DNA of 64,000 nt. It comes from Sinorhizobium medicae (GTDB lineage Bacteria > Pseudomonadota > Alphaproteobacteria > Rhizobiales > Rhizobiaceae). The translations under genes and the position numbers were made by a program. The notes beneath the pieces are model-generated. The model was not told the DNA's origin. It did not search any database and was given only the letters and a program-made list of their open reading frames with translations. The stretch lies in assembly GCF_007827695.1 (NCBI RefSeq), contig NZ_VITA01000012.1, forward strand, positions 124,001 to 188,000, given 5' to 3'. Positions 5,138-51,626 of the stretch are shown here, one piece after another (positions within the stretch are counted from its first letter, which is position 1; each line of letters starts with the position of its first letter).

Positions 5138-6013
5138 GTGAGCGAGATACGCCTTTTCGTCACCACCACCGAGAAGCAGGCGACAGCCGTACTCGACGTC
5201 ATGAGCGCGATCTTCGAAGACGACGATTACGCGATAGCTACCATGGAGATCGACGAGAAGCGTGATGTCTGGGAAGCTTCGGTCTATATGATGGCCGACG
5301 AAGAAGAGAGCGTGAGATCGCGCCTCGCTCAGGCACTCGAAGCCGATTTTGCGAATCTTCCGATCGAGCGCGAAGTGCTGCCGGATGTGGACTGGATTGC
5401 CAAATCGCTCGAGGGCCTCGCCCCTGTGCGCGCAGGTCGCTTCGTCATCCACGGTTCGCACGACCGTGACAGGGTTAAACCCGGCGAGATCGCCATCGAG
5501 ATCGATGCCGGGCAGGCCTTCGGCACCGGCCATCACGGCACCACGGCCGGCTGCCTTGAAATGCTTGCCTCTGTCGCCCGGTCTCGGCCTGTCAGCAACG
5601 CTCTCGACCTGGGAACGGGAAGCGGTGTGCTGGCGATCGCCGCCTGGAAGCTTCTTCACGTGCCGGTGCTTGCAACCGACATCGATCCTGTCGCGACTTT
5701 CGTCGCCTCCGAAAACGCCCGTCGAAACGGTGTCGTCACCGGCTTGACCTTCGCCACCGCGCCCGGCTTTCACTCGAATACCTTCAGCGCCAGCGGCCCC
5801 TTCGACCTCATCATCGCCAACATCCTGGCGCGGCCGCTGATGAAGATGGCACCGCAACTTGCCGCAAATCTCGCCCCCGGAGGCTCGGTCATTCTCTCCG
5901 GCATCCTCGCCGAGCAGCGCTGGAAGGTGATCGCGGCCTATAATGGCCAGAACCTCAAGCATGCGCGCACCATTTGGCGCAACGGCTGGGTAACCATCCA
6001 TCTGACCCGATAA
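5138..6013 (+). CDS. prmA: Ribosomal protein L11 methyltransferase PrmA
   Basis: A 291-residue S-adenosylmethionine-dependent enzyme that methylates ribosomal protein L11 in the cytoplasm. The N-terminal substrate-recognition region leads into GQAFGTGHHGTT, the SAM-binding motif LDLGTGSGVLAIAAWK, a TDIDPVA acidic loop, and the PrmA signature NILARPL. I chose the GTG at 5138 (SEIRLFVTTTEKQ) because AAGGAAAG lies six bases upstream and because earlier ATGs would add a non-conserved extension. The gene is followed by a strong hairpin at 6094-6130 that should end the transcript. Confidence 0.9.
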   Translation: MSEIRLFVTTTEKQATAVLDVMSAIFEDDDYAIATMEIDEKRDVWEASVYMMADEEESVRSRLAQALEADFANLPIEREVLPDVDWIAKSLEGLAPVRAGRFVIHGSHDRDRVKPGEIAIEIDAGQAFGTGHHGTTAGCLEMLASVARSRPVSNALDLGTGSGVLAIAAWKLLHVPVLATDIDPVATFVASENARRNGVVTGLTFATAPGFHSNTFSASGPFDLIIANILARPLMKMAPQLAANLAPGGSVILSGILAEQRWKVIAAYNGQNLKHARTIWRNGWVTIHLTR

Positions 6014-6093
6014 GAGACTCTGCTTCGGTCCTTATTCCTCGACATCGGGATGAGGACCGTAAGAGTTCCAGCTGAGAAGAGAGCCTGAAACCG

Positions 6094-6130
6094 AAAAGGC
6101 CGCCCAGTCCATCATGACGGGCGGCCTTTT
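6094..6130 (+). terminator. Terminator after prmA
   Basis: A perfect 12-bp stem, AAAAGGCCGCCC paired with GGGCGGCCTTTT, around a 13-base loop. Because the stem starts with A4 and ends with T4 it can act in both directions. It could therefore also back up the end of the minus-strand RNA that finishes near 6131. Confidence 0.8.
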
Positions 6131-6290
6131 CGAAACAAAGGCGATGCCGAAGCATCGCCTGCTGGCCGGCTTGTGACCGACCATACCCGCGAGCCTGAGG
6201 AGGAGGAGCGCTCAAGCGGGCTCTACCGTTCCGAAGCTGACCACCCTGAGGGAGGAGGAGAACAGATGACCAGCTATTCTCGGAACTGCA
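6131..6290 (-). ncRNA. Candidate anti-Shine-Dalgarno sRNA (alpha-r14/NfeR1-like architecture)
   Basis: Read on the minus strand, three hairpins follow one another. The first pairs CCGA plus AGCTG with CAGCT plus TCGG (6231-6239 with 6271-6283), and its loop exposes CTCCTCCTCCC. The second pairs 6186-6194 with 6210-6220 (nine pairs, one two-base bulge), and its loop exposes CTCCTCCTCC. The third, GGCGATGC-TTCG-GCATCGCC at 6140-6159, is followed by TTTGTTTC, a classic intrinsic terminator. Two looped anti-SD motifs plus a terminator is the architecture I recall for rhizobial alpha-r14 trans-acting sRNAs, which block ribosome binding on transporter mRNAs. The 5' end is approximate. Family membership is inference. 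Confidence 0.5.
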
Positions 6291-6328
6291 GTCTTTTGAA
6301 CCGGCGAATATTCGTCCGTGTTCGTTGA

Positions 6329-6555
6329 GCGCGCTTATAAACTATAATTCCGATAGAGATAGATACATTGCGGCATGGGTGCCATGCATCGTGTGCATAT
6401 GTATGACAAATGGGCAGACGCCCTCAGCCGGAGGTGAGCCGATATGGCTGCTGTTTTATGAGTCTTGTCCCAAAACCGCTGCACATTTTCGGGCGACATG
6501 CATTAACATGCCTCGTCTCACCTTCCGTTCTCCTTCAAGCTTACCGGGGATATCC
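6329..6555. other. Leader region of the aminopeptidase gene
   Basis: No supported gene. It holds an AT-richer stretch near 6335-6370 that could carry the promoter of the plus-strand aminopeptidase, of the minus-strand sRNA candidate, or of both. The reading frame of the aminopeptidase stays open upstream to 6325, but the encoded residues are not aminopeptidase-like. Confidence 0.3.
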
Positions 6556-8391
6556 ATGTTCCAGTCCTTCGAAGTCACCTCCACGCCTCAGTTCGGCAAG
6601 GAGAGAACCGCCGCACTGCGTACAGCCATCGCAAGCCTGGGCGTCGATGGCTTTCTCGTGCCGCGTGCCGACGAGTTTCAGGGAGAATATGTGCCCCGCT
6701 GCTGCGAACGGCTATCGTGGCTGACCGGGTTTACGGGCTCGGCGGGCGTTGCGCTCGTCACGCAGCGCCAGGCGATCGTTTTCGTCGACGGCCGCTACGT
6801 CACGCAGCTCAAGGAGCAGGTCGACGGCAGCGTCTTCACCGGCGGCGATCTCATCGGCGAACCGCCGCATGTGTGGCTTGAGCGCCATGCACCAAAGGGT
6901 TTCCGCCTCGGCATCGATCCCTGGCTGCACACCGCAGCGGAAGTTCGCCGGCTCGAAAAGGCGCTCGCCGCGATCGATGGCAGCCTCGTATTTCTTGACC
7001 ACAATCCGCTCGACCGGCTCTGGGCCGACCGTCCGGCGGCGCCGCTTGGTGCGGTGGCGATCCAGCCCGTCGAGCATGCGGGGCGATTGGCGAAGGAGAA
7101 GATCGCGGCAATCGCGGCGGAAGTGGAAAAGACCAATGCCGCAGCCGTCGTTCTGACGGACCCCTCCTCCGTCGCCTGGACCTTCAATATCCGCGGCAGC
7201 GACGTGCCCCACACCCCGCACCCTTTGGCCCGCGCCATCGTCCATTCTGACGGACGCGCGGAGCTTTTTCTCGACAAGCGCAAGACGGGAATCGAGCAGG
7301 AAGCCTATCTGACCCAGCTTGCAGACATAATGGCACCCGCGACCTTCGACGATCGCCTGGCCGCCCTCGCCTCTACCGGCGCGGCAATGATGATCGACCC
7401 CGATCTCGCCCCCTTCGCCATCGGCGAGCTGATCCGCAGGACGGAAGGCCTGGTCATAGAGGCCGCCGATCCCGCCCGCCTGCCGCGCGCCTGCAAGAAT
7501 GCAGCCGAGATCGGCGGATCGATCCGGGCGCACCTGCAGGATGGTGCGGCGATGGTTGAGTTTCTCGCCTGGCTCGACCGGGCGGAGCCCGGCAGCGTCA
7601 CCGAAATCGGCGCAGTCCGGCAGTTGGAGGCAGCGCGTGCAGCCGTCGGTGAGCGCATGCAGAACCCCCTGAAGGACATTTCTTTCGACACGATCGCCGG
7701 TTCCGGCCCGCATGCTGCAATCATGCACTACCGGGTCACGAACGATACCGACCGGCCGATCGAGGCGGGAACGATGTTCCTGATCGACTCCGGCGCGCAA
7801 TACGTCAACGGCACGACGGACATCACCCGCACCGTGGCGATCGGGACAGTGCCGGAAGAGCAGAAGCGGTTCTTTACGCTCGTTCTCAAGGGCATGATCG
7901 CAATCAGCACGGCGCGCTTCCCGAAGGGATCGCGCGGCGTCGACCTCGATCCGCTCGCCCGGATCGCGCTGTGGAAGGCCGGCGCCGATTATGCCCATGG
8001 GACCGGTCACGGCGTCGGCTCGTATCTTTCGGTCCATGAAGGACCGCAGCGCATTGCGCGGCTTGCCACGCAGGAATTGTTGCCCGGCATGATGCTTTCC
8101 AACGAGCCGGGCTATTATCGCCCCGGCGCCTTCGGCATCCGTATCGAAAACCTCGTCTTCGTTCGCGAACCGGAGGAAATCGCAGGCGGCGACCAGCCAA
8201 TGCTCGGCTTCGACACGCTGACCTATTGCCCGATCGACCGCCGGCTCGTCCTTCCCGCCCTTCTGACGGACGACGAACTCGACTGGCTGAATTCTTACCA
8301 CTCGGAAACGCGGGGGAAGCTGATGCCGCTTTTGGCCGACGGTGAGACCAGAGCCTGGTTGACCAGCGCTACGGAATCGATCGAGCGATAA
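6556..8391 (+). CDS. pepP: Xaa-Pro aminopeptidase, long M24B form
   Basis: A 611-residue cytosolic metallopeptidase predicted to remove N-terminal residues preceding proline. Two creatinase-like N-terminal domains lead to the C-terminal pita-bread catalytic domain. The dinuclear metal ligands are visible: the Asp of LIDSGAQY, the Asp of TTDITRT, the His of HGTGHGVG, the Glu of SNEPGYY and the Glu of RIENLVFV. The length matches the three-domain XPNPEP1-like branch rather than the 440-residue E. coli PepP. Start is the ATG at 6556 (MFQSFEVTST) with GGGGAT just upstream; the longer open frame from 6325 encodes no aminopeptidase-like sequence. A hairpin follows the stop at 8400-8427. Confidence 0.88.
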   Translation: MFQSFEVTSTPQFGKERTAALRTAIASLGVDGFLVPRADEFQGEYVPRCCERLSWLTGFTGSAGVALVTQRQAIVFVDGRYVTQLKEQVDGSVFTGGDLIGEPPHVWLERHAPKGFRLGIDPWLHTAAEVRRLEKALAAIDGSLVFLDHNPLDRLWADRPAAPLGAVAIQPVEHAGRLAKEKIAAIAAEVEKTNAAAVVLTDPSSVAWTFNIRGSDVPHTPHPLARAIVHSDGRAELFLDKRKTGIEQEAYLTQLADIMAPATFDDRLAALASTGAAMMIDPDLAPFAIGELIRRTEGLVIEAADPARLPRACKNAAEIGGSIRAHLQDGAAMVEFLAWLDRAEPGSVTEIGAVRQLEAARAAVGERMQNPLKDISFDTIAGSGPHAAIMHYRVTNDTDRPIEAGTMFLIDSGAQYVNGTTDITRTVAIGTVPEEQKRFFTLVLKGMIAISTARFPKGSRGVDLDPLARIALWKAGADYAHGTGHGVGSYLSVHEGPQRIARLATQELLPGMMLSNEPGYYRPGAFGIRIENLVFVREPEEIAGGDQPMLGFDTLTYCPIDRRLVLPALLTDDELDWLNSYHSETRGKLMPLLADGETRAWLTSATESIER

Positions 8392-51000: not shown

Positions 51001-51226
51001 TAAGCTCTTGAACAGCCTTGCGGATGATCAAATATTGATAGGTTGTTAAGTTTAACAAAGGGTTACGATCCGGACCCTAATGCCTTGGAATCCCGTTCAA
51101 AAGCGGACCGCGCCGGCAAGCCGGGTAGAACTGATTCGGTGCGCAACGATGCGAGGTGCACCGCCACTCGATGAGATCAGCAAAATCCCGGAGGGCGCTG
51201 GCGGAAGCGCAGCAGCAAAGAAAAAA

Positions 51227-51626
51227 AGCCAGTTGGCCTGTAAGCCGGGTTCTGTATGGCTCCGCCTCCGAGGAGACGAAACGTGGCAGCCATTCATCTG
51301 GGACTGCGCTTGCGCGCAGCCTCGTGCAACCCACCCGGACGACGCGCCTGGAAACCGGCTGGACGCTTGCGCGCCCGTGTCGTCCCTATTCGGTCTTGCT
51401 CCCGGTGGGGTTTGCCGTGCCGTCCATGTCGCCATGTCCGCGGTGGGCTCTTACCCCACCCTTTCACCCTTACTCCGCAAGCGGAGCGGTCTGCTTTCTG
51501 TGGCACTTTCCCTGGGGTCGCCCCCGCCGGACGTTATCCGGCACCGTGTTTCCGTGGAGCCCGGACTTTCCTCGCCCCGCGGCCTTTCGGCACTTGCGGG
51601 GCGCGGCTGCCCGGCCAACTGGCAGA
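51227..51626 (-). ncRNA. rnpB: RNase P RNA (bacterial type A)
   Basis: The catalytic RNA of RNase P, which matures tRNA 5' ends. Read on the minus strand the 5' part has GAGGAAAGTCCGGGCTCC (universal CR I) and the 3' part AGAACCCGGCTTACAGG (CR V). The outer P1 helix pairs GCCAGTTGGCC with GGCCAACTGGC (51613-51623 with 51228-51238). The sequence GGGTGAAAGGGTGGGGTAAG matches the P-loop core. A run of T residues (GCTTTTTTTC) follows as terminator. The 5' end is set from helix P1 and may be off by a few bases. It lies between dsdA and mraZ. Confidence 0.95.

Follow-up and report, generated by a model that had tools for sequence, protein, structure and literature searches.

A conserved minus-strand RNA with anti-Shine-Dalgarno loops in Sinorhizobium, probably the former 3' part of a small mRNA under LsrB-type control

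The locus between prmA and pepP

The window, the whole stretch of 64,000 nucleotides of Sinorhizobium medicae DNA that was analysed, carries a prmA-like and a pepP-like gene, both on the plus strand, with the locus of an RNA read from the minus strand between them. The RNA runs from about 6326 to 6131 (predicted length, 196 nt); its two loop hairpins expose CUCCUCCUCCC and CUCCUCCUCC, a terminator follows, and the minus-strand reading of the locus closes with the terminator tail UUUGUUUC. The features of the locus are the following:

6013, plus strand: end of the prmA-like gene (ribosomal protein L11 methyltransferase; by eye and from relatives' annotation)
6092-6132, both strands: perfect inverted repeat, bidirectional terminator-like, between prmA and the RNA
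6131-6160, minus strand: intrinsic terminator (stem 6160-6139) and tail TTTGTTTC
6163-6183, minus strand: variable spacer hairpin between hairpin 2 and the terminator
6185-6221, minus strand: hairpin 2, loop reading CUCCUCCUCCUC
6197-6208, minus strand: loop motif 2, CTCCTCCTCCTC
6225-6289, minus strand: hairpin 1, loop holding CUCCUCCUCCC
6250-6260, minus strand: loop motif 1, CTCCTCCTCCC, which contains CCUCCUCCC
6305-6318, minus strand: small 5' hairpin of the consensus structure
6326 (±2), minus strand: predicted transcription start
6334-6339, minus strand: -10-like TATAAG, of which TATAA (6339-6335) is kept in all 37 aligned sequences
6375-6398, minus strand: LsrB/VtlR-type operator ATGC-N7-GCAT-N7-AT, at -72 to -49 of the predicted start
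6556, plus strand: ATG of the pepP-like gene (aminopeptidase P; by eye and from relatives' annotation)

The terminator stem is the sole minus-strand match among the three terminator-like matches found in 6000-6600 (0.4 expected). Helix 1 of the consensus structure joins the terminator tail to ACGAACA at the 5' end of the RNA, next to the small 5' hairpin (98.2% of cells paired, no double change), and this pairing might protect both ends of the RNA. The sequence CTCCTCCTCC occurs twice in the window, both times on the minus strand (6251-6260 and 6199-6208), against 0.17 occurrences expected; 2 of 100 shuffles of the 64-kb window reach that count. Furthermore, the strand from 6300 to 6120 has a folding energy of -73.5 kcal/mol (z = -2.56), and 1 of 200 shuffles was equally stable. 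The genome itself (6.5 Mb, 68 contigs) holds one copy of the RNA, the second match being the inverted repeat of the same place.

An earlier note on this DNA had described three consecutive hairpins at 6131-6290. The two loop hairpins and the terminator with its tail stand as described, with an additional, variable hairpin (6183-6163) before the terminator; this spacer hairpin is absent in 2 of 37 aligned sequences, the Ensifer/Sinorhizobium loci L036 and L038, where the other parts are kept. The conserved block reaches past that interval, extending from about 6092 to about 6405 and including the promoter.

Conservation and structure of the RNA

Besides the window, the alignment of 37 sequences took in 27 loci from the Sinorhizobium/Ensifer group and 9 from the Rhizobium group. 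Among the 120 genomes covered by a DNA search were 32 others of the genus, of which 31 matched strongly; the exception is a genome that is 70% complete. Both loop motifs, which the earlier note had expected to be conserved in relatives, are kept in all 37 aligned sequences, the second with an extra CTC unit in L042. Averaged over the 37 sequences, the probability of being unpaired is 0.996 for the first motif and 0.932 for the second, compared with 0.318 for the rest of the RNA.

Across the alignment, 99.2% of the 2165 pair cells of the consensus structure remain paired, and 12 of its 59 pairs are altered on both sides (covariation score, 0.214 vs. 0.143). None of 500 shuffles reached the observed values for cells paired, double-changed cells or covariation score, and 3 of 500 reached that for double-changed pairs; a weak measure, the number of further pair types, was reached by 43 of 500. 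Every slid-structure control had at most 47.3% of cells paired. Because the structure was derived from the same alignment, the slid controls favour it; the shuffles are the fairer comparison, and the caveat of relatedness among the sequences remains with them. On the same alignment, the consensus energy was -77.8 kcal/mol for the minus strand vs. -34.0 kcal/mol for the plus strand.

A covariance model of the RNA (R1), built from 27 of the 37 rows, found it on the expected strand in 82 of 83 sources. These 82 loci are the best 82 of 104 model matches, taken at one per source with E <= 0.005, the 22 weaker matches being dropped; the source without a match, L064, has a sequence that stops 180 nt past prmA. 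Eighty named loci were fetched via prmA, so that their adjacency to prmA is true by construction. Of the 82 loci, 77 have two C/U loops that carry TCCTCC (or CTCCCTCC), and L060, L083, L087, L089 and L104 have one. Searched with R1, at least 78 of 394 genomes of the family gave a match, with one copy each; the filters were strict, and this count is therefore a lower bound.

On the plus strand, the loop motifs look like Shine-Dalgarno sites, behind which the earlier note saw no good genes. Of the 37 sequences, 7 have an intact version of the 51-aa frame that begins at 6173; the ATG at 6266, kept in 28, yields a 20-aa frame in 14. Frames so poorly kept leave no well-kept gene behind the look-alikes, and a plus-strand gene was rejected on these counts.

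Two other readings of the sequence were discarded. The -12 GC of a possible sigma-54 promoter, TGGCAC-N5-CCGCA, varies. The GAAC repeats suggestive of a LexA site stand, by eye, six bases apart; the spacing of LexA repeats is seven bases. Also considered and set aside were the Agrobacterium RNAs PmaR, whose interacting sequence is not an anti-Shine-Dalgarno sequence (PMC6234868), and VrsA, located between atu4669 and atu4670 (PMC7486931).

Correspondence to a transcript detected in S. meliloti

By coordinates, not by sequence comparison, the RNA is the S. meliloti candidate sm26, alias SmelC531. At the gathering threshold, the only Rfam match in the whole window was the class A RNase P RNA (51225-51622, minus strand, 305.7 bits), which lies 45 kb from the RNA locus in the window and about 35.5 kb from it in S. 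meliloti 4H41. Strain 1021 has this RNA as SmelC809 at 2356793-2357134 (PMC7143759). With the RNase P 3' end as anchor, the terminator-tail end in 4H41 (window position 6131) falls on 2321055 of strain 1021, a transfer that presumes no indel between 4H41 and 1021 across 35 kb. The predicted terminator end of sm26 is 2321055 (PMC2573895), and SmelC531, seen in 454 reads and equated with sm26 by its authors, spans 2321050-2321287 on the minus strand (PMC2873474). Locus and strand thus agree by coordinates, and the terminator end of the window coincides with the end predicted for sm26 and lies 5 nt from that of SmelC531; the 5' end of the SmelC531 454 contig is about 37 nt upstream of the start predicted here. 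Northern bands of about 135 and about 200 nt, microarray signals under acid, cold, oxidative and salt stress, and conservation in S. medicae, R. etli and R. leguminosarum are described for sm26 (PMC2573895). The published intergenic length of 1270 nt does not match the approximately 600-1000 nt of 4H41, and strain 1021 must therefore differ on the prmA side.

Conservation, compensatory changes, the comparison of strands and the coordinate match to this Northern-detected transcript together bear out the proposal of the earlier note that the minus strand encodes an sRNA with looped anti-Shine-Dalgarno motifs. The conserved RNA is real and was detected earlier. Among the matches listed, sm26/SmelC531 in this sense appears only in PMC2573895 and PMC2873474; it stands classed as cis-antisense, and the matching passages name neither a regulator nor an origin or a function. 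The family study of 2011 was built on 52 trans-encoded sRNAs (PMC3927594). None of the literature matches listed, which leave aside the 2015 cuckoo RNA paper, links sm26/SmelC531 to LsrB or describes a loss of an ORF.

In S. meliloti Ak57 (L115; CP090106.1, 2413934-2420211), an antitoxin-like gene and further genes separate the RNA from the SCO gene of the prmA side. CP090106.1 is labelled pSymB yet measures 3.7 Mb, which suggests a mislabelled chromosome.

A promoter design shared with AbcR1 and NfeR1

Published promoter boxes are available for two other sRNAs: in abcR1, the LsrB/VtlR box GCAT-N3-TG-N3-T lies at -61 to -49 (PMC8844928), and in nfeR1, the bound motif TGCA-N6-GCAT, with EMSA and mutation data, lies at -72 to -60 (PMC10746234). 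Both boxes are found in the window within 6375-6397, upstream of the core promoter. At 6375-6387 (-61 to -49), the plus strand has GCATGGGTGCCAT, which fits GCAT-N3-TG-N3-T exactly, and the minus strand reads TGCACACGATGCAT at 6397-6384 (-71 to -58, with the start at 6326). Elsewhere in the genome, the corresponding promoter sequence is ATGCGCAAACGGCATGGCTGTCATGC at the first copy of a tandem ar15 pair, taken as AbcR1, and ATGCACTGTTCGCATAGGTGCCATTC at one ar14 copy, taken as the NfeR1 counterpart. The pattern ATGC-N7-GCAT-N7-AT has 18 sites in this genome vs. none for the reversed pattern, and CTCCTCC follows within 420 nt downstream at only 3 of the 18, namely those of AbcR1, NfeR1 and the RNA described here.

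The three-half-site element was found up to 450 nt upstream in 75 of the 82 loci; of the seven others, two offer no more than 20 nt of sequence upstream. The literal GCAT-N3-TG-N3-T, on either strand, is present in 24 of these 75 boxes and the literal TGCA-N6-GCAT in 42; the centre base of the operator is A in 19 and T in 18 of the 37 aligned sequences. By eye, a LysR-type frame that fits lsrB adjoins the ar15 copies. Because the promoter motif is shared, LsrB likely controls this RNA as well, a judgement made from the motif. For the AbcR RNAs, LsrB is reported to be without effect in S. meliloti 1021 (PMC7486931) and to have a strong effect in strain 2011 (PMC8844928). Apart from the promoter element, the likeness to AbcR1/ar15 (RF02345) lies in the C/U-rich anti-Shine-Dalgarno loops, whereas sequence and fold are different and AbcR1 is Hfq-bound (PMC8844928).

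Just past the tandem ar14 copies, an LsrB-type box, GCATGGGTGCGAT, lies upstream of a DUF1127 frame (MNLARSFNNWRKYRQ...; L160, G000:C8:79463-79477). The small Agrobacterium gene atu1667 is one that we take to be a DUF1127 gene. Control of this gene by VtlR has been described (PMC7486931). A three-half-site element also stands before a frame that by eye is peroxiredoxin-like (L220, G000:C6:125355-125378), which would fit a redox regulator.

A small reading frame ahead of the hairpins in relatives

Rhizobium, Neorhizobium and their kin have the same hairpins preceded by a frame of 46-57 aa, which is found nowhere in the Sinorhizobium/giardinii clade. The operator stands 105-161 nt from the hairpin core in 39 of the 82 loci, the window included, and 203-309 nt from it in 36; in the remaining 7, no operator was found. 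The ORF is present in the long-form loci and in five of the seven operator-less ones (L060, L081, L082, L104 and L107); the other two, L087 and L113, come without upstream sequence. A related ORF was recognized in 40 of 41 ORF-type loci, the frame of L089 looking unrelated, after exclusion of seven of 47 frames as chance frames in ORF-less loci; it is missing in the window and in the other 38 ORF-less loci. Thirty-six of the 40 ORFs have 57 codons, and the others have 46, 55, 55 and 57 (L097, full frame). AAGGA precedes the ATG, and in 33 of 40 the ORF ends 8-12 nt into the core, within the 5' arm of hairpin 1. In this arm, the GTTCCGA of the window aligns with the ORF end of Rhizobium, some relatives having GTTCTGA, and we read it as a remnant of that end.

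Across 329 pairs of the 36 equal-length ORFs, there were 1681, 1324 and 3856 changes at codon positions 1, 2 and 3, and single-change codons were synonymous in 2775 cases vs. non-synonymous in 1704, the pairs being non-independent. Judged from these counts, the codon use is that of a coding frame.

The state of the ORF changes twice on a prmA tree of 80 rows, and none of 500 shuffles gave so low a number. The ORF-less loci are a clade of Sinorhizobium/Ensifer, giardinii/herbae and Shinella L064 (support, 96/88) and, separately, Ferirhizobium L079, on a tree rooted by midpoint only that lacks L067, L113 and L114 and includes L064 without RNA data. The second Shinella (L114), outside the tree, is ORF-less.

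Of 249 genomes taken from the order, 73 gave a match to the small protein, and 71 of the 73 belong to other families than that of the window. The protein is absent from the genome studied here (best E, 0.076), and a plasmid tblastn with two of the small proteins gave no match. A usable frame was present in 22 of 28 outside-family loci that were read, and 8 of the 22 have a C/U run including CTCC within 170 nt downstream; by eye, the motif is exposed in a loop only in L197 and L206. Before six of the 30 frames were excluded as wrong picks (L184, L193, L194, L195, L204 and L205), the count stood at 14 of 30 loci for a C/U run and at 7 of 30 for an upstream ATGC/GCAT pair. Since the frame is widespread outside the family and the loop motif rare there, the frame seems older than the hairpins, and, with a midpoint root only, we read the order of events as frame, then hairpins, then loss of the frame. 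A single hhalign comparison of the small protein with DUF1127 gave 71% probability (E, 3.9e-5), with no DUF1127 match in Pfam (nine tested) and no match in NCBIfam (three tested); the protein is perhaps DUF1127-like.

Relation to ar14/NfeR1, cuckoo and CIN1-type RNAs

The earlier note had likened the RNA to the ar14/NfeR1 family. The likeness is real in the loop motif, an anti-Shine-Dalgarno CCUCCUCCC, and in the promoter, where an element of the same design stands at the same distance before one ar14 copy of this genome; membership did not hold against the Rfam model. The ar14 covariance search that had been suggested as a check (RF02344) was run: at E <= 10, the interval 5950-6600 gave 11 Rfam matches, none above its family cut-off and none to ar14. 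Genome-wide, with 150 of 353 first-look candidates scored, RF02344 matched eight places at E <= 0.001, six of them above the cut-off and none at this locus. The 2015 cuckoo RNA paper reportedly defines its family by 2 to 4 adjacent hairpins, each with CCUCCUCCC in its loop; here the first loop fits, the second lacks the last C, and the exact CCUCCUCCC occurs in 58 of the 82 loci. NfeR1 has three hairpins, each loop with this motif (PMC10746234), and ar14 has several copies, whereas this RNA has two such hairpins, the second with the loop CUCCUCCUCCUC.

The Rhizobium relatives resemble the CIN1-type locus of Rhodobacter in that a small DUF1127-like frame and a CCUCC-loop RNA form one unit; the differences are that the frame is missing in the window and that Rhodobacter has four CcsR RNAs and an RpoHI/RpoHII promoter (PMC10253847).

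Proposed function and origin

We propose that the minus strand from about 6326 to 6131 gives rise to a stand-alone, trans-acting sRNA whose activator is most likely LsrB, a redox-sensing LysR regulator that would bind the operator. The two loops, complementary to Shine-Dalgarno sequences, can by analogy pair with GGAGGAGG-type ribosome-binding sites and would do so on a set of mRNAs, lowering their translation; the loops of NfeR1, with the same motif, silence ntrB and other mRNAs (PMC10746234). The sRNA would be the former 3' part of an mRNA that encoded a small, perhaps DUF1127-like protein and was transcribed from the same promoter. Relatives would have retained promoter, ORF, two hairpins and terminator, and the Sinorhizobium/giardinii lineage would have lost the ORF and kept the rest. 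We put the probability of this whole explanation at about 0.7. OxyS is said to be an independent case of an sRNA derived from an mRNA, in other bacteria and with another regulator.

The classification of SmelC531 as type '2, cis-encoded antisense' in PMC2873474 would make the RNA an antisense to the 5' region of pepP or to a small plus-strand gene. We regard this as very improbable: the RNA ends short of prmA, its predicted start lies 230 nt upstream of the pepP ATG, the 51-aa frame is intact in so few sequences, and the conserved pairing is far stronger on the minus strand than on the plus. There is a slim chance, larger than for an antisense RNA, that the locus holds a genuine but diverged ar14/NfeR1 (cuckoo) copy with no separate history, as the exact CCUCCUCCC in the first loop and the promoter type common to this RNA and an ar14 copy would allow. 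Against it stand the silence of RF02344 at E <= 10 and the eight genomic places that exclude the locus, the single copy in each of the 78 matched genomes among 394, vs. multi-copy ar14, and the relatives, which carry the RNA as the tail of a small mRNA.

Two further alternatives concern what the loops do and which part came first. The C/U loops could serve to bind a protein, either an RNA chaperone or one of the DUF1127 kind, to titrate the 30S subunit or just to shield the 3' end. Two nearly identical loops could serve as protein sites, and in Rhodobacter the DUF1127 protein CcaF1 acts on the CcsR RNAs of the same transcript (PMC10253847). This is unlikely, if the least so of the alternatives, given that NfeR1 uses loops carrying this motif to silence ntrB (PMC10746234) and that the Sinorhizobium RNA retains the loops despite the loss of the frame. 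A gain of the ORF in Rhizobium and Neorhizobium, ahead of an older sRNA, would be permitted by a prmA tree rooted only by midpoint. The occurrence of the protein family in 73 of 249 genomes of the order, nearly all outside the family, with the loop-exposed motif only in L197 and L206, makes such a gain improbable, though less so than an antisense role.

Returning to an anti-Shine-Dalgarno sRNA left over from an mRNA, we lean towards a wider reading as well: an LsrB-controlled, DUF1127-like mRNA would have gained 3' anti-Shine-Dalgarno hairpins in Rhizobiaceae, making a protein-plus-riboregulator, and Sinorhizobium would have lost the protein half and kept the riboregulator, with one redox regulator driving three such sRNAs of separate origin (AbcR1, NfeR1 and this RNA) through a common promoter design. 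If true, Rhizobium species carry the ancestral dual-function form. A neglected transcript would then gain a likely regulator, a structure and an origin, and a before/after pair would be at hand for how stand-alone sRNAs arise from mRNA tails, the before state (promoter, ORF and hairpins) in R. leguminosarum and relatives and the after state in S. meliloti, each of them readily worked with. The shared promoter architecture and the ORF ahead of the hairpins in relatives appear to be new. They suggest that LsrB acts via several convergent anti-Shine-Dalgarno RNAs, which bears on the redox reshaping of metabolism in nodulation.

Two other places in the genome deserve mention beside the ar14 and CIN1-type RNAs. 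L123 (G000:C9:193444-193544), a sub-threshold ar14 match with two CCTCCTCCC motifs in apparent hairpin loops, is a possible two-hairpin cuckoo RNA of this genome. At G000:C3:383287-383397 and 383612-383736, an ar14 copy is preceded on its own strand, at a distance of about 215 nt, by a DUF1127 match, which makes the arrangement one of the CIN1 type.
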